DNA of 64,000 nucleotides from Verrucomicrobiota bacterium (GTDB lineage Bacteria; Verrucomicrobiota; Verrucomicrobiia; Verrucomicrobiales; DEV007): the NCBI GenBank assembly GCA_030625775.1, contig DAOUQC010000009.1, forward strand, positions 17,751-81,750, written 5' to 3'. The position numbers and the translations under genes were made by a program. Below, piece by piece: positions 2,921 to 19,277 of the stretch (positions within the stretch are counted from its first letter, which is position 1; the number at the start of each line of letters is the position of its first letter). The notes beneath the pieces are model-generated. The model saw only the letters and a program-made list of their open reading frames with translations, searched no databases and was not told the DNA's origin.

Positions 2921-3367
2921 CTACGAATCAGCGTGCAGCTTTTTGATAACCCCAACTGGTAGTTTTCCCACCGTATCCTGAAGATTGGTACTATCTGCCC
3001 ACTCGCGAAAATCGTCTGCGACCCCCACCAGAGAATCATGGAGTGGACAGGGATGTTCGCTATTACATGCCCCCCAACCAAAAGCGCAGCGATTTAGATC
3101 GGGATAGGCATCAACCGCTTTGAGGATATCAGAAAAAGGAATTTCCGAAGGATTGCGGGCAAGGGCAAATCCTCCGCCCAGGCCTTTCCGGGAGACCAAC
3201 AGGTCAGCGAGAACCAGGCGGCGCAAAACTTTTGATAAATAATGACTGGGAACTCCGCTACCTCTCGAGAGATCTTTAGCGCAAACCGAAGCATCGGGCG
3301 ACTCATTCACCAGCCAAACCATGGCTCGAAGGGCGTATTCCGAAGTCTGGGACAAAAATGGATGCAT
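2921..3367 (-). CDS. Rrf2-family transcriptional regulator, NsrR/IscR-like
   Basis: N-terminal TSEYALRAMVWLV wHTH, GGGFALARNP, and a three-Cys cluster CAFGWGACNSEHPC (C-x6-C-x5-C) typical of Fe-S Rrf2 regulators; divergent from the heme-copper operon. Confidence 0.88.
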   Translation of the reverse strand: MHPFLSQTSEYALRAMVWLVNESPDASVCAKDLSRGSGVPSHYLSKVLRRLVLADLLVSRKGLGGGFALARNPSEIPFSDILKAVDAYPDLNRCAFGWGACNSEHPCPLHDSLVGVADDFREWADSTNLQDTVGKLPVGVIKKLHADS

Positions 3368-3519: not shown

Positions 3520-4983
3520 ATGTCCACTAATTTAACAGAGGTAAATCTTGAGCCATCCACTGAAGTGATCACTTCATCGATGGACTCGGGAGCACTTGCA
3601 AAGGTGGTGCCACAAAGTGCCCGGCACTGGATTGGTCTTTCTCTAGGGGTATTGGTTCTCGCCGGGCTATTTGCCTTGGCAGTAGTGATTGGCCGTATGC
3701 CTCCATTTGATCGTTTTGTCACAGATCCACTTTTTTTCAAACGCTGCCTGGTGGGGCATGTGAATATGTCACTGGTGGTATGGTTCTACTCTTTTTTTGT
3801 AGGATTGCTATTTCTGATGCCGAGCGGGCAAAATGCCGGATGGTTGCGCCGACAAGCCGCAACCGTAGCGCTTGTGGGCGTCCTTATGATGTTGGTGGGC
3901 GCAATCATTCCAGGCACCCAACCGATTCTTTCAAATTATGTGCCCACTATTGATCACTGGCTCTTCCGATCCGGGCAGATTGTTTTTGGTATCGGCATTC
4001 TCCTCGGCCTGTTGGACATACGCCTCTTCCAAGCACCCCGTCCGGGCAATACAATGGCATTCAGCATGCCGGCCGCTACACAGGAAGGTCTACATATAGC
4101 CGTGATTGCTTTTGGGCTTGCCGCGATGACTTTGGGGATATCCTTTTTCAATCGCCCTATCGGTGTAGGGGTCGACGTGTTTTATGAGCTGGTGATATGG
4201 GGAACCGGTCACCTCTTGCAATTGGTGTCCACTATCGCCATGATCTCGGTCTGGATCATTTTACTCACCCGGGTCATCGGTAGATCTCCAGTAAGTGGAA
4301 GAGGAGCTCGCATTCTTTTCTGGGCCATGCTTTTGCCATGGGTTTACGCCCCCTTTCTTGCCATGCAGGGAACAACCACCAGCACCTACCGGGGCGGCTT
4401 CACCCACCTGATGCAATGGTGCATTTTCCCTGTAACGACAATTTTTCTCATCCTCTGTATCAAGAGTGTGGTGCACGCCTGGCGAGAGGGAATCATAAAT
4501 CGCAAAATTCTGGCTGATCCCTGTTTTACCGGGTTTGCAGTGAGTGCGGGCCTTACTTTACTTGGTTTTGGACTCGGGGCAGCCATCCGTGGCTCCAATA
4601 CTATGGTTCCCGCCCACTACCACGCTTCAGTTGGTGCGATCACCGTGGCTTTCATGGCCGTAACGGGGCCGATCCTGAAAGCCTTCGATTTTTCCCTGGG
4701 CACAAAAAAATTGCGCCGTGCTTTTGCATGGCAGCCTGCACTTTATGGAATCGGAATGCTCCTGTTTGCAGCAGGATTCGGATTTGCAGGTAGCCACGGG
4801 ATGGGGCGGAAAGTTTATGGGGCGGAACAGGCCGAGCGGGGATTTGCCGAAACGGTTGGACTTGGAATTATGGGGGTGGGTGGTCTGATCGCCATCGCGG
4901 GAGGTTTGCTTTTCCTATGGATTGCGGGTGCCGCCTGGTGGCGGGGATCCACAAAAAAAACACAAATACAACGACGACCTTAG
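3520..4983 (+). CDS. Heme-copper oxidase/NO-reductase subunit I-like protein with apparently degenerate CuB site
   Basis: Polytopic; TM2 His (CLVGHVNMSLVVWF), TM6 GHLLQLVST, TM10 AHYHASVG; shares late-TM sequence (GLGIMGVGGLIAIAGG vs MLGIMGVGGVIAFIGA) with the 5720..7459 protein but lacks its AHH motif. Confidence 0.72.
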   Translation: MSTNLTEVNLEPSTEVITSSMDSGALAKVVPQSARHWIGLSLGVLVLAGLFALAVVIGRMPPFDRFVTDPLFFKRCLVGHVNMSLVVWFYSFFVGLLFLMPSGQNAGWLRRQAATVALVGVLMMLVGAIIPGTQPILSNYVPTIDHWLFRSGQIVFGIGILLGLLDIRLFQAPRPGNTMAFSMPAATQEGLHIAVIAFGLAAMTLGISFFNRPIGVGVDVFYELVIWGTGHLLQLVSTIAMISVWIILLTRVIGRSPVSGRGARILFWAMLLPWVYAPFLAMQGTTTSTYRGGFTHLMQWCIFPVTTIFLILCIKSVVHAWREGIINRKILADPCFTGFAVSAGLTLLGFGLGAAIRGSNTMVPAHYHASVGAITVAFMAVTGPILKAFDFSLGTKKLRRAFAWQPALYGIGMLLFAAGFGFAGSHGMGRKVYGAEQAERGFAETVGLGIMGVGGLIAIAGGLLFLWIAGAAWWRGSTKKTQIQRRP

Positions 4984-5006
4984 TGTCGGTGAATCAAGCT
5001 AATACT

Positions 5007-5162
5007 ATGATCCCAGAAAAACCTGATAAAAAACATTGGCTTCAAAAGCTCATGGACAACCCGTGGATCCTATTGGTTCTGGGTGTCGTGGTTCCAACCC
5101 TTTCATACACTGTATGGGGATGGATTGAACTTCTAATGATAACAGAAGCAAAACTCCCTTAA
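5007..5162 (+). CDS. Small single-TM protein (51 aa), probable accessory subunit of the heme-copper complex
   Basis: In-frame ATG inside ORF 4917..5162; MIPEKPDKKHWLQKLMDNPWILLVLGVVVPTLSYTVWGW; sits between two subunit genes in a tight operon. Confidence 0.55.
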   Translation: MIPEKPDKKHWLQKLMDNPWILLVLGVVVPTLSYTVWGWIELLMITEAKLP

Positions 5163-5179
5163 TTCTACAAAAAAAGACA

Positions 5180-5707
5180 ATGAGTATCTCTCCACCACCT
5201 GATGATTGGTTCAAAGCACCCCACGGCAATGAAAAGCTCTGGCTGGGGCTGGCGATCGCCTGGTGTATTGTGATGTCGATTGCGATGCCTTACTGGCACT
5301 TCGTAGGAAAACAAAACAGTACCGGCGAATCCTACAAAGTTACACCTAAAGACTTCATCGCCCGGGTTCAGGAATTCGTGAAAACGAATCAAGTCGGCAC
5401 GATGAACAACTTTCCTGTAGTAGAGGGAACCCCTGGGGGTGACATCTACATGCAAGGCCAAATGTGGCTCTGGTATCCAGTTCTCAAACTGAAAAAAAAC
5501 CAGACCTACCGCCTACACCTTTCGTCGATTGATCTGCAGCACGGGCTGTCTATCCAACCGCTGAACATGAACTTTCATGTATTGCCCGGATATGACCACG
5601 TGCTGACTATCACTCCGACGAGTTCAGGAGAATTCCCTCTTATATGTAATGAGTTTTGCGGAATCGGCCACCATACGATGGCCGGCCGGATTATTGTTGA
5701 AGATTAA
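5180..5707 (+). CDS. Cytochrome c oxidase subunit II-like protein with CuA site
   Basis: One N-terminal TM; CuA ligands DLQHG and CNEFCGIGHHTM (CxxxCxxxHxxM). Confidence 0.87.
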   Translation: MSISPPPDDWFKAPHGNEKLWLGLAIAWCIVMSIAMPYWHFVGKQNSTGESYKVTPKDFIARVQEFVKTNQVGTMNNFPVVEGTPGGDIYMQGQMWLWYPVLKLKKNQTYRLHLSSIDLQHGLSIQPLNMNFHVLPGYDHVLTITPTSSGEFPLICNEFCGIGHHTMAGRIIVED

Positions 5708-5719
5708 CAAAAGATTTCG

Positions 5720-7459
5720 ATGTCAGAAAATAACACAAGTGAAACGTCAGATTCAGGATCCAGCGGAAATTACCTGAATAACAATATGCGGACCTGCGAT
5801 ACCACGGGTTTACCCGTGTGCATGGTTGCCCAGAAATTCATCAAGCTGCATGCTGTGCTAGCAGTTGTATTTCTGCTGGTAGGTGCCTGCGCGGCACTCC
5901 TGCTAGCCCTTACCCGGTGGCCGGCAGTTCATCTACTCAATCAGGTTTGGTACTACCGTGTGCTTACGCTGCATGGTCTCAACATGCTGATTTTCTGGAT
6001 CCTGTTTTTTGAGATAGCTGTTCTCTATTTTGTGGGAACAAGCTTGCTGAACACACGATTAGCATCGGCTAAAACAGCTTGGGCGGGCTTCCTCCTCATG
6101 TTCGTAGGGGCGATTCTCACCAATGTAGCCATCATGCAAGGGAGAAGTGATGTACTCATGACCTCCTATGTACCACTGAAGGCATCCCCGATGTTCTACT
6201 TTGGAATCATTCTGGTGGCAGTCGGCACATTGATAGGTGTGATCAATTTTTTCTGCACGATTTACATCGCCAAAAGGGATAAAACCTATAAAGGATCTGT
6301 TCCGCTAGTCGTGTTCGGTGGAATCGCCGCAGCGATCATTGCTGTAGTGACTCTTCTGCACGGTGCTGCAGTCATGATACCCACTTGGATGTGGGCCATG
6401 GGGTGGATCGATAATATTGATCCAGCCTGGTACCGGATTGTCTGGTGGGGCCTGGGACACAACTCACAGCAGGTCAATGTCTGCGCCATGGTGGCCGTCT
6501 GGTATTTCCTCGCAACCGTCACCGTAGGAGCCAAACCTCTCAACCAGGCCGTATGCCGGGGAGCCTTTGTTCTTTACATCCTGTTCATCAACCTCGCAGC
6601 GGCCCACCATCTTCTGGTGGATCCAGGTGTAGGTGCCGGTTGGAAAATTTGGAATACCTCATACGCCATGTATCTGGCAGTATTGGCTTCCATGATCCAC
6701 GGATTCACAGTGCCCGCCTCGGTCGAGGTAGGCCTTCGTGCCCATGGTTACAATCGGGGACTCTTTGGTTGGCTGGTCGCCGCTCCCTGGAAAAATCCAG
6801 GCTTTTCGGGCTTCTTCCTTTCGCTGGTGATCTTTGGATTTGGAGGAGGAATTACCGGTGTGGTACTGGGAATCCAACAAATCAATATCATGGCCCACAA
6901 TACCCTGCGTATTCCCGGTCACTTCCATGTCACCGTGGTGGGCGGAACGACCCTAGCTTTCATGGCGCTGACTTACTACGTGGTGCCCCTGGTGTTCCAG
7001 AAAGAATTTTATCTCAAGAGCCTGTGCCGTATCCAACCCTATGTTTTTGGTGGCGGCATTGTCATGATGGCGATGGGAATGTCATTTGCAGGATCCTACG
7101 GGGTACCTCGCCGCCATTGGGACATCGATCTGACCGGTGCCCCTTTCACCTCCAACTTTGATTCCGGTGCTCATACGATGCTGGGAATCATGGGAGTCGG
7201 CGGAGTAATCGCTTTCATAGGAGCACTGATGTTTATTCTCCTGGTCGTCTCAGCGGTATTTTTTGGTAAATCAAATGCTGGAAAAGCAATGAGCGAATGG
7301 AATGAGCCTCTGGGTGTTGCCGGAGCTGACGCGGTCGCAGATGATGGCAAAAGCAATACCCGGGGAACCTTTGTATTGGCCTTGATCTTCCTCGCTTGTT
7401 TTGCAATCTACTACTTTGCCAACTGGAAATGGCTGGCGGATGTGTGGGAAGTCAGATGA
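5720..7459 (+). CDS. Heme-copper oxidoreductase subunit I, candidate CuA-type NO reductase
   Basis: Six-His pattern: LHGLNMLIFW (TM2), GHNSQQVN (TM6), AAAHHLLVDPG (TM7), GHFHVTVVG (TM10); lacks the HPEVY Tyr motif of A-type oxidases; located in a nir cluster. Confidence 0.82.
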   Translation: MSENNTSETSDSGSSGNYLNNNMRTCDTTGLPVCMVAQKFIKLHAVLAVVFLLVGACAALLLALTRWPAVHLLNQVWYYRVLTLHGLNMLIFWILFFEIAVLYFVGTSLLNTRLASAKTAWAGFLLMFVGAILTNVAIMQGRSDVLMTSYVPLKASPMFYFGIILVAVGTLIGVINFFCTIYIAKRDKTYKGSVPLVVFGGIAAAIIAVVTLLHGAAVMIPTWMWAMGWIDNIDPAWYRIVWWGLGHNSQQVNVCAMVAVWYFLATVTVGAKPLNQAVCRGAFVLYILFINLAAAHHLLVDPGVGAGWKIWNTSYAMYLAVLASMIHGFTVPASVEVGLRAHGYNRGLFGWLVAAPWKNPGFSGFFLSLVIFGFGGGITGVVLGIQQINIMAHNTLRIPGHFHVTVVGGTTLAFMALTYYVVPLVFQKEFYLKSLCRIQPYVFGGGIVMMAMGMSFAGSYGVPRRHWDIDLTGAPFTSNFDSGAHTMLGIMGVGGVIAFIGALMFILLVVSAVFFGKSNAGKAMSEWNEPLGVAGADAVADDGKSNTRGTFVLALIFLACFAIYYFANWKWLADVWEVR

Positions 7460-7499
7460 CTTCCCCACTCTCTGCCTTCTGCCTGCTTGAAAACTTACC

Positions 7500-8456
7500 A
7501 TGTCTGAAAGTCCTTCTATACGATTAATAGAGCATTTACGGCGTTTTTTTGAAAACGGAGGATTTGCCGCATTTGCCTTATGTTTACTGCTGGGATTCGA
7601 CACCCTCTTACTGGGGTTGTTATTGACTCCGGGTGGAGACCACGGCATCGGAGCATTTGCGGATGAATTGCGGGTATGGTGTTTCGGACTTGATTCGGCA
7701 ACCGGAAAATTAGAATGGAGTTATGTTTTTTCCATGCTATTCCCCCCCCTCTTACTGTCCGGAGCGCTCCTTCTTTTCTGGGGCAAACCCGTGCGCCAGA
7801 TTTTTTCCCAACCGCGCTCCCTGGCCCTGCACCTTCTTCCCGCTCTGATCCTGGTTGCTGGTTGTGGTGCATCCTTTGCATTTTTGGCAAATCCATCCCA
7901 GGGCGACAAGCTGGAATTTCCTGCAGAGGAAATCAGGACGCACCTGCCTACACCAAATCTCAATCTAATCAATCAAGCTGGCGAAAAAGTCGATCTGGCT
8001 GACATGCGTGGCAAAGTAGTCGTGCTCACCGGGATTTACACTTGCTGCGTGCAAACCTGCCCATTAATTATCTTGCAGGCAAAATCAGCCATCGCGGATT
8101 TGCCGCCGGAGCTTCTCAAAGATCTGCGCTTCGTAGCAGTGACCATGGACCCCATTCGTGACACCCCTGAAAAGCTGAAGGAATTTGCGGAAATGCAAGG
8201 AATAGCCCCACCTCTCTATCAACTGGTTACGGGGGAGGTTGAGAAAGTTGAAGCCACTCTGGACGCTATGGGCATTGCTCGGGAACTGGATAAAGAAACC
8301 GGCATTATCAGCCATGTTAATCAATTCCTTCTGGTAGACAAAGACGGCAAAGTTGCCTATCGCCTGGGCTTGGGAGAGCGGCAAAAAAAATGGCTCAGCT
8401 CGGCAATGCAGGTTTTGCTCGAAGAAAATGGTGATGAAGAAAGGCTTGTCCACTGA
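7500..8456 (+). CDS. SCO1/SenC-family protein with N-terminal membrane segments
   Basis: TGIYTCCVQTCPLI (CxxxCP), AVTMDPIRDTPEKLKEFAE, and a C-terminal conserved His region; thioredoxin-like SCO signature. Confidence 0.85.
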   Translation: MSESPSIRLIEHLRRFFENGGFAAFALCLLLGFDTLLLGLLLTPGGDHGIGAFADELRVWCFGLDSATGKLEWSYVFSMLFPPLLLSGALLLFWGKPVRQIFSQPRSLALHLLPALILVAGCGASFAFLANPSQGDKLEFPAEEIRTHLPTPNLNLINQAGEKVDLADMRGKVVVLTGIYTCCVQTCPLIILQAKSAIADLPPELLKDLRFVAVTMDPIRDTPEKLKEFAEMQGIAPPLYQLVTGEVEKVEATLDAMGIARELDKETGIISHVNQFLLVDKDGKVAYRLGLGERQKKWLSSAMQVLLEENGDEERLVH

Positions 8457-10627
8457 TGTCCGGTACAACGCCCAGTGAAGACAAGCAGACTAGTTCAGAG
8501 AGTCAAGTGGGGGAAATCGAGTTAACCGTTCCGGATCTGACAGACCTCCTGCCCACTGCCTTTGACAACAACAACACCTCGACCGTCGATCCCCCGGTTC
8601 GTGGAGAAATAATCCTGCGATCTCTGGAAAAGTTGTTTCTACGCTTTGACCGCCTGATAGCCCTAGGGCTTCCAAAGGAATACAACCCCTTTCTACAAAC
8701 CGGCACCATCGCCATGGTTTCCCTGTTGATTGCTACGGCAACCGGCGTTCTGCTGCTGCTCTGGTATTCTCCCAGCGTAGTTCAGGCATTCGCCAGCGTA
8801 TCTGCGATGGATGCAGCACCGTGGACCAGCGGACTGGTTCGTTCACTTCACCGCTACAGTTCCGACATGTGCCTGTTTTTCACTCTGGCGCATGCCATCC
8901 GGCTGTTTTCCCAGCGGCTGTTCACCGGAGCCCGGTGGCTGGCATGGGTCTCAGGCATATCCATGATGGGAATCATCTGGTTTATAGGGTGGACAGGATA
9001 TTGGTTGGTATGGGATGAACGGGCGCAACATCTGGCCGTCGGCTCGGCAAAAGCTCTCGATATCTTACCAATATTCGCAGACCCCATGGGCCGGACCTTT
9101 CTGGTAAATGAAACCGTGAATTCATTGTTGTTCTTCGTCATCTTTTTCACCCACATAATGATTCCCCTGGTTTTCGGGATTGCCTCCTGGCTTCATCTTG
9201 CCCGGATTTCACGACCAAAATTTCTCACTGACAAGTGGATGTCTTACTGGGTAGTGGGCACCCTGCTGGCTATCAGCATTTTCTATCCCGCCACGACTGC
9301 TGAGCCGGCGAATATGACGGCCATCAACCAGAGTTTCACCATGGATGCATGGTATCTCTTTCCGATCACCCTGATGGACCGGTTGAGCGGAGGCGCTCTA
9401 TGGGGAGTCATACTGATAAGCGGCTCCCTGGCATTTTCGATTCCCTGGTTACTGGGAAGAGGACGCCCCCGCAGTGCCCTCGTGATCACTTCACGCTGTG
9501 ATGCCTGTGGCAACTGTTATAACGATTGTCCCTACAATGCCATCACCATGGTGTCGCGTAAGGGCAGCCTAAACGAACGCTACCCAACCGTTGCGCACGT
9601 AGACTCCAATCTGTGTGTTGGTTGCGGGATTTGTGGAGGATCCTGTGATACTGTCGGTAACGGATTGCCTTGGTTCGATACCACTGAAAAACGCAAAATC
9701 ATGCGTTCCTGGATAAAAGAAATGCAGGAAGCAGGAGAAAAACCCTTCATCGCTTTGGTTTGTGAAAACTCAGCTGGAATGGATTTGAAAGTCGATTTGC
9801 AATCCGGTGTGTGTGAAGAATTACCCGGCTATCGGGTTTTAAAAATTCCCTGTGCCGGGTGGATTCACCCACTGACAATCGAAGGCTTGGAGAGAAAAGG
9901 TGCGGAGGGTGTGCTGGTGGTGACCTGCGGCCCTGGTGAGTGCCGCTACAGAGAAGGAGCCAAGTGGACACAGCAGCGAGTCGATGGTGAGCGCTCTCCT
10001 GCATTACGCAACGAATATGCAGACCGCAAAAAAATCCTCATCCTCAATCTGGACAAAACAAGCCGGAAGAAAATGATTGTGCAAGGTTCGGCCTTTCAAC
10101 AGGGCGAACATGTGATAAACGATGTAAAACCTTCCAAGGCAGCGATGGGATTCACTGCAACCTTACTGACTTTGTTTATTGCCTGCTTGATTGCCGTGGG
10201 CAGTGACATCCCATACACCACTCCCGCTCAGACAGGCTCGACCCTGGTCGTCACCTTCCGGCATCCCGGTCAGGTTTCCGATGTAGTCAAAAGACTGACA
10301 AGTGAAGAACTGGAAGCTCTGCCCATGCATATGCGTCAGGAGGAGATACGGGAGAGAAAACGGATGCCCGTCCGGCTGCGCATCCGTATCGACGGACAAG
10401 TGATCCGGGAGGGAGTTTATACCCCCAAAGGTATATGGGAAGACGGACCCAGTGTCGCTGTAGAGAGCATTTCCCTTTCACCTGGCAGCCACAAGGTGGA
10501 GGTCTCTGTAGGAGACGGAAAAGATGAAAAAAAATGGCAGTTCAATAATGAAAAAGTCATCGAATTTACCAACGAAACAAGACGGGTGCTTATCTTTGAT
10601 CGAGTGAAAGGTTTTTCATGGTATTGA
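8456..10627 (+). CDS. Cytochrome b(6)-like / 2[4Fe-4S] ferredoxin / MvhD-FlpD-like fusion protein
   Basis: N-terminal cytochrome b (SLHRYSSDMCLFFTLAHAIRLF, WTGYWLVWDERAQ), CDACGNCYNDCP and CVGCGICGGSC motifs, then CENSAG...KIPCAGWIHP...VVTCGPGECRYREG (MvhD-like), one further TM and a soluble tail. TGATG overlap with the SCO gene. Confidence 0.82.
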   Translation: MSGTTPSEDKQTSSESQVGEIELTVPDLTDLLPTAFDNNNTSTVDPPVRGEIILRSLEKLFLRFDRLIALGLPKEYNPFLQTGTIAMVSLLIATATGVLLLLWYSPSVVQAFASVSAMDAAPWTSGLVRSLHRYSSDMCLFFTLAHAIRLFSQRLFTGARWLAWVSGISMMGIIWFIGWTGYWLVWDERAQHLAVGSAKALDILPIFADPMGRTFLVNETVNSLLFFVIFFTHIMIPLVFGIASWLHLARISRPKFLTDKWMSYWVVGTLLAISIFYPATTAEPANMTAINQSFTMDAWYLFPITLMDRLSGGALWGVILISGSLAFSIPWLLGRGRPRSALVITSRCDACGNCYNDCPYNAITMVSRKGSLNERYPTVAHVDSNLCVGCGICGGSCDTVGNGLPWFDTTEKRKIMRSWIKEMQEAGEKPFIALVCENSAGMDLKVDLQSGVCEELPGYRVLKIPCAGWIHPLTIEGLERKGAEGVLVVTCGPGECRYREGAKWTQQRVDGERSPALRNEYADRKKILILNLDKTSRKKMIVQGSAFQQGEHVINDVKPSKAAMGFTATLLTLFIACLIAVGSDIPYTTPAQTGSTLVVTFRHPGQVSDVVKRLTSEELEALPMHMRQEEIRERKRMPVRLRIRIDGQVIREGVYTPKGIWEDGPSVAVESISLSPGSHKVEVSVGDGKDEKKWQFNNEKVIEFTNETRRVLIFDRVKGFSWY

Positions 10628-10820: not shown

Positions 10821-11375
10821 ATGAAAAATAAAACCCCCACTCAGAAAAAAATCGCTCGGAAAACAGCAGCCAGAAAAACCACTGCTCGGAAAACCACTGC
10901 TCGGAAAACTCCTGCGAAAAAAACCACTGCTCGGAAAACTCCCGCTCGGAAAACCCAGGTAAAAAAATCTGACAATACATTAAAATCACTCAAATCTGTT
11001 CTCAAGCGGATGATAGAGATCCGGGATAACATGGAAGAATTAAATGCTGAAATGAGGGAGCTCTATACTTATGCTGCACAGCTTGCTTCCGGTATCGAAA
11101 ACATAACAGCGGAAACAACCCCAGCCAGCCATCCCCTTTTCCAGTCCAAGCTGTGGAAATTTCTAAAAAAGGAAAAGCCAACTATCTTAATCCCCTCCAA
11201 AATAGCTAAAGAAAGGAAGTGGACCAATCAGGATGGTAAAACCATAGTTGCCACCTTGATTAGCATCACAGATGATGAGGCTGTTTTGAAAACCAAAGGG
11301 GGGGTGGAATACCGCTATCCCATCGAAGCTCTCTCAAGTGAAAACCAGGCAGAGATAGCAACGCTTACACCCTGA
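10821..11375 (+). CDS. Lys/Ala/Thr-rich histone H1-like tail fused to an SHD1-like domain
   Basis: N-terminus ARKTTARKTTARKTPAKKTTARKTPARKT; C-terminus RKWTNQDGKTIVATLISITDDEAVLKTKGGVEYRYPIEALSSENQAEI resembles SLA1 homology domain 1. Confidence 0.65.
   Translation: MKNKTPTQKKIARKTAARKTTARKTTARKTPAKKTTARKTPARKTQVKKSDNTLKSLKSVLKRMIEIRDNMEELNAEMRELYTYAAQLASGIENITAETTPASHPLFQSKLWKFLKKEKPTILIPSKIAKERKWTNQDGKTIVATLISITDDEAVLKTKGGVEYRYPIEALSSENQAEIATLTP
10858..10951 (+). repeat. In-frame ~15-bp tandem repeat (ctcggaaaaccactg) encoding ARKTT units
   Basis: Several near-identical copies of gctcggaaaaccact visible by eye. Confidence 0.8.

Positions 11376-16919: not shown

Positions 16920-19277
<2,358 letters not shown>

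Follow-up and report, generated by a model that had tools for sequence, protein, structure and literature searches.

The eNOR family of heme-copper NO reductases was reportedly described by Murali et al. in PNAS in 2024. N2O-forming reductases of the eNOR type are distinguished by a glutamine in the active site, and annotations often list them as oxygen reductases (PMC8756737). Nitrite respiration to N2O supports the growth of an Opitutales isolate that carries an eNor homologue (PMC13274419). Another protein that serves a heme-copper enzyme is CcoG/FixG, a cupric reductase (PMC8456105), in which transmembrane (TM) helices are followed by two cytoplasmic [4Fe-4S] clusters, a further TM helix and a periplasmic domain. 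Additionally, an Appendix table of PMC8756737 contains, uninterpreted, the Chloroflexi ORF RME88945.1, whose listed domains are cytochrome b6, DMSOR-beta-like Fe-S and FlpD. In a literature search that excluded the 2024 PNAS article, this table entry was the only prior description of a cassette joining an NO reductase (NOR), cytochrome b and FlpD.

The window analysed here, a stretch of 64,000 nucleotides, contains a gene cassette in which NOR-like subunits are followed by a fusion of cytochrome b, ferredoxin and FlpD modules. The fusion has the same first three modules as RME88945.1, as compared through the table listing of the latter alone. The NOR resembles the eNOR family in its Gln active site (HxSQQ) and its CuA subunit II. 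Rhodothermus-type eNOR loci, in contrast, hold just the two NOR genes of the cassette set, to which the clade of the window adds SCO, the fusion and usually a second subunit I devoid of CuB. The genes of the cluster are the following:

2921–3367, minus strand: Rrf2/NsrR-like regulator, divergent from the cassette (Pfam Rrf2, 1.9e-25)
3520–4983, plus strand: COX1b, second heme-copper subunit I (PF00115, 8.7e-11)
5180–5707, plus strand: CuA subunit II, COX2 (H121, C156, E158, C160, H164 and M167 invariant)
5720–7459, plus strand: COX1a, catalytic subunit I of the eNOR type (H85, H247, Q250, Q251, H296, H297, H401 and H403 invariant)
7500–8456, plus strand: SCO/SenC copper chaperone with an N-terminal multi-TM region (PF02630, 3e-20)
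8456–10627, plus strand: fusion ORF, cytochrome b, two [4Fe-4S], FlpD, TM helix and periplasmic domain (723 aa)
16920–19277, plus strand: NirS-type cytochrome cd1 with two N-terminal CxxCH domains (PF02239, 7.6e-150)

COX1a (579 aa) keeps all the heme and CuB ligands and carries, within HxSQQ, a glutamine at the position of the oxidase active-site tyrosine. This residue (Q251) is found in all 88 aligned sequences and in the Rhodothermus-type sequences, the ba3 controls having tyrosine, and the CuA ligands of subunit II are invariant in 85 sequences. By the residues of its active site and CuA centre, the adjacent oxidase-like complex is of the eNOR type and a predicted NO reductase, a function to which the nirS or nirK neighbours and the nitrite-respiring Opitutales isolate point indirectly. 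COX1b (487 aa) retains the heme ligands H80, H366 and H368 together with H231, and the CuB His-His pair is absent in 61 of 61 sequences; its sequence marks it as probably non-catalytic. A further conserved histidine, H146, is present in most COX1b members. The denitrification setting proposed in the earlier note is borne out by the nirS gene of the cluster and by the 67 long loci, 21 of which have a nitrite reductase gene near the fusion (18 NirK, 3 NirS); in three further Planctomycetota-set loci, nirS directly follows the fusion. Rrf2 regulators occur in 17 of the 67 long homologous loci. The genome of the window encodes five COX1-family ORFs, with nothing resembling cNOR or qNOR seen on a brief look at the other three, as well as a NosZ-like protein that scores below the family cut-off.

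The fusion is a genuine single gene. Its ORF starts with ATG, contains no internal stops, is intact and exists as one copy in its own genome. A sequencing or assembly artefact, one of two outcomes that the earlier note had regarded as fatal to its reading, is ruled out, because homologues from dozens of independent assemblies align over nearly the full length with up to 52% identity. Every module and cysteine motif quoted in that note was recovered: Pfam recognises Cytochrome_B (72-251), Fer4 (343-398) and FlpD (432-510), and the seventh TM helix and the soluble beta domain were modelled. The parts of the fusion, all on the same strand as the gene, are these:

8669–9208, plus strand: N-terminal four-helix part of cytochrome b, residues 72–251 (heme ligands H132, H146, H233 and H247)
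9233–9454, plus strand: C-terminal part of cytochrome b, helices E and F, residues 260–333 (MDAWY, D297 invariant)
9482–9649, plus strand: double [4Fe-4S] ferredoxin domain, residues 343–398 (predicted cytoplasmic by the positive-inside rule)
9749–9985, plus strand: FlpD/MvhD domain, residues 432–510 (C436, C466, C491 and C496)
10136–10204, plus strand: seventh TM helix, residues 561–583 (AF2 model and topology averaging)
10208–10624, plus strand: predicted periplasmic beta-sandwich, residues 585–723 (PxHMR conserved)

An AF2 model of the fusion, built from 60 sequences (the window and the homologous loci), reached a mean pLDDT of 91.4 and a pTM of 0.89 and is confident save for about the first 40 residues. 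Foldseek matches of its membrane part are the cytochromes b of bc1/b6f complexes. The description of this part in the earlier note is therefore corrected to a bis-heme cytochrome b of the bc1/b6 type, to which helices one and two of the 'subunit IV' half are joined. The AF2 helices, read together with the mean hydropathy and charge of 60 homologues, give the protein seven predicted TM helices with the N-terminus inside. The same model and averaging place the Fe-S and FlpD domains in the cytoplasm and the last domain in the periplasm, which answers the question about the Fe-S side raised in the earlier note. The two [4Fe-4S] motifs are CDACGNCYNDCP (C348/351/354/358) and CVGCGICGGSC (C387/390/393/397), and the FlpD part carries CENSAG (C436), PCAGW (C466) and CGPGECRYREG (C491/C496). 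The ferredoxin and FlpD part aligns with residues 569-729 of HdrA2 and also matches MvhD chains in the PDB; unlike these proteins, the fusion has no flavin domain, and its cluster ligands are incomplete in most homologues. In the beta domain, the PxHMR motif is conserved (H625 in 94% and M626 in 98% of sequences), and residues 585-723 matched no family, while PDB profile and Foldseek searches with them returned generic beta-sandwiches only, none of them below an E value of 0.001.

Conservation is uneven along the protein. The two pairs of heme histidines typical of Rieske/cytochrome b cytochromes b (H132/H146/H233/H247) are invariant in 90 of 90 fusion sequences, as are the eight cysteines of the [4Fe-4S] clusters. 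Of the 90 sequences, 30, the window included, have all four FlpD cysteines, 58 have some of them and 2 have none, and the full [2Fe-2S] cysteine set expected of an MvhD/FlpD carrier is therefore not conserved across the family. Electron transfer through the b hemes and the ferredoxin is thus strongly constrained, while the FlpD cluster is not, and an MvhD relay is not essential; the role of electron carrier that the earlier note had assigned to this domain is weakened accordingly. The glutamate of the PEWY motif at the Qo position, also expected of Rieske/cytochrome b cytochromes b, is replaced (MDAWY in the window, commonly MDWWY), and the aspartate found there, D297, is invariant across the fusion family. 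Taken by its sequence, the fusion is most economically read as an electron module that crosses the membrane and has quinone-reactive cytochrome b among its relatives.

The relation of this module to the NOR was followed through a scan of genome contigs, in which 216 relatives were confirmed and loci from 80 of the 216 were kept. Gene order was counted in the 57 loci with more than 6.2 kb of upstream DNA, and the order COX2-COX1a-SCO-fusion was found in 55 of them, the exceptions being a truncated locus (L017) and an orphan (L039). The tandem pair of subunits I pointed out previously is common, since COX1b is also present in 51 loci, but it is not universal, as Rhodothermales-type loci keep the fusion and have no second subunit I. 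In one genome (G275), two ORFs stand in place of a single fusion ORF (L010, 8912-11031), as either a frameshift or a pseudogene. Across 640 genomes from three surveyed groups, a close COX1a and the fusion coincide in 42 of 42 genomes: 6/6 in the phylum of the window (289 genomes), 30/30 in the phylum of G292 (237 genomes) and 6/6 in the order of G289 (114 genomes). In contrast, the fusion occurs in none of the 11 genomes with a Rhodothermus-type eNOR alone and in none of the 5 with ba3 alone; the absence controls comprise 24 genomes, and genomes of one phylum are not independent of each other. The neighbourhood outcome that the earlier note had named as a refutation, a fusion unrelated to NOR-like operons, did not occur, and the connection it suggested with the NOR-like complex next door is thereby upheld. 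The clade with the cassette spans Myxococcota, Verrucomicrobiota, Planctomycetota, Acidobacteriota, Spirochaetota and Bacteroidota-type genomes.

We favour, with moderate confidence, the explanation that the fusion is the dedicated transmembrane electron-transfer partner of one eNOR clade, derived from a module of the Rieske/cytochrome b type and working without a Rieske protein. The two b hemes would carry electrons between the periplasmic face and either the quinone pool or the cytoplasmic Fe-S clusters, and the NOR would receive them, at the CuA subunit or at the CuB-less COX1b, for the reduction of NO to N2O. The FlpD part may be a relict docking domain whose cluster has probably been lost in most lineages. 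Flow of electrons into the NOR is judged the most likely. The explanation as an electron partner draws on the near-obligate linkage and co-occurrence, on the invariant heme and [4Fe-4S] ligands combined with the bc1 fold of the model and the positive-inside topology, and on the identity of the NOR, whose Gln active site is shared with the Rhodothermus-type enzyme, together with the nirS gene in the cluster. Against it, no cytochrome c or Rieske protein that would complete a path from quinol to CuA is present in the cassette, the PEWY glutamate is lost, and Rhodothermus-type eNOR loci manage without the fusion. A Rieske protein is also missing from the most frequent neighbour clusters of the 67 long loci.

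The position of the fusion beside the copper chaperone gene bears on a second explanation. In the window, the last base of SCO is the first base of the fusion start codon; in other loci the fusion also lies directly after SCO, with small gaps, and SCO is present in 56 of the 57 loci, missing (by ORFs and tblastn) from the orphan L039. Pairwise distances of the fusion correlate most strongly with those of SCO (0.78), followed by COX1b (0.70) and COX1a (0.58), in a comparison that ignores rate differences. The fusion might accordingly act as a maturation reductase similar to CcoG, passing cytoplasmic electrons through the Fe-S clusters and b hemes to reduce periplasmic Cu(II) or the disulphides of SCO for CuA/CuB assembly, in which case the His-Met conserved in its periplasmic domain would be turned towards copper. 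The absence of both fusion and SCO from Rhodothermus-type eNOR loci fits this proposal, as does the order of modules, which is that of the CcoG of the same genome. CcoG/FixG nevertheless has neither cytochrome b nor FlpD, and a FixG_C identity of the C-terminal domain is not supported (hhalign probability 0.1, and none of 58 members with a Pfam hit to FixG_C). Moreover, the genome of the window already has its own CcoG, and a maturation factor would not usually contain a bis-heme cytochrome b of the bc1 type. The near-universal pairing with SCO, the overlap in the window and the higher correlation with SCO and COX1b than with COX1a fit a maturation role as well, which we regard as rather unlikely. 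In four Planctomycetota-set cassettes (L245-L248), SCO matches fall on two adjacent ORFs and the SCO gene seems to be split.

Relatives in which the modules are separate also bear on the choice between electron transfer to the NOR and maturation. In three Acidobacteriota-set loci (L242-L244), the same cytochrome b-ferredoxin protein occurs with a free-standing FlpD, whose four cysteines are all intact, adjoining a Rieske protein and another, different cytochrome b; one of these operons (L243) spans 4314-9929, where cytochromes c are readable too. This module has a similar D-x-WY motif and differs from the fusion in being split, in its complete FlpD cysteines, in its Rieske and second cytochrome b partners and in having no periplasmic domain. 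Since Rieske/cytochrome b operons are a respiratory rather than a maturation context, these loci argue for the fusion as an electron partner of the NOR. On the Defluviimonas plasmid NZ_CP156080.1 (L237, 10972-17511), a cytochrome b-FeS-FlpD gene, a gene for the periplasmic domain and a hemerythrin gene follow one another and adjoin COX2, COX1, cyoE and SCO. The periplasmic domain is likewise a gene of its own in L238 and L240, some Acidobacteriota included, and the two genes of the split form are neighbours of the NOR in Defluviimonas and L238. The pieces united in the fusion are thus found apart in other loci.

The cofactor order of the fusion is also the one required for quinol bifurcation, in which a quinol would be oxidised at the periplasmic side. 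One of its electrons would pass to the NOR, at high potential, while the b hemes and Fe-S clusters would lead the second to a low-potential acceptor in the cytoplasm. Such a scheme has been argued for those Rieske/cytochrome b complexes of anammox that include NAD(P) oxidoreductase subunits (PMC12954380). Here, however, the cassette has no Rieske protein or other one-electron high-potential acceptor, the FlpD cluster, by which electrons would naturally leave for a soluble partner, lacks a full set of ligands in two thirds of the sequences, and no NAD(P) or flavin subunit is prominent among the recurrent neighbours, so that we consider bifurcation very improbable. The broader proposal of a NOR whose built-in cytochrome b/ferredoxin module couples NO reduction to cytoplasmic low-potential redox, either driven by ferredoxin or through a quinol bifurcation that pays for the reduction of ferredoxin or NAD+, is scarcely less doubtful. 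The ties of one large eNOR clade to a fixed set of partner genes provide a simple genomic marker and raise the question of why an NO reductase that already possesses a CuA site should retain a cytochrome b that has no Rieske protein but carries cytoplasmic Fe-S clusters.

COX1a is 42-45% identical to the subunit I of Rhodothermus-type enzymes, among whose genomes is one (G337) that may be R. marinus DSM 4252. In the subunit I tree, the Rhodothermus and ba3 groups are each strongly supported, and the present clade forms one group at 76/81 only. The COX1a of the window groups with Myxococcota-set sequences (100/100) and not with other Verrucomicrobiota, which suggests horizontal transfer. The NirS of the cluster (16920-19277, 785 aa) has two CxxCH cytochrome c domains ahead of the d1 domain, an arrangement like the C1-C2-NirS layout that has been called unique to Chloroflexi (PMC8756737). 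Finally, just downstream of the cassette (10821-11375) lies a gene for a Lys-rich protein with KTxARK repeats, which resembles the histone H1-like HC2 at a score below the Pfam cut-off.
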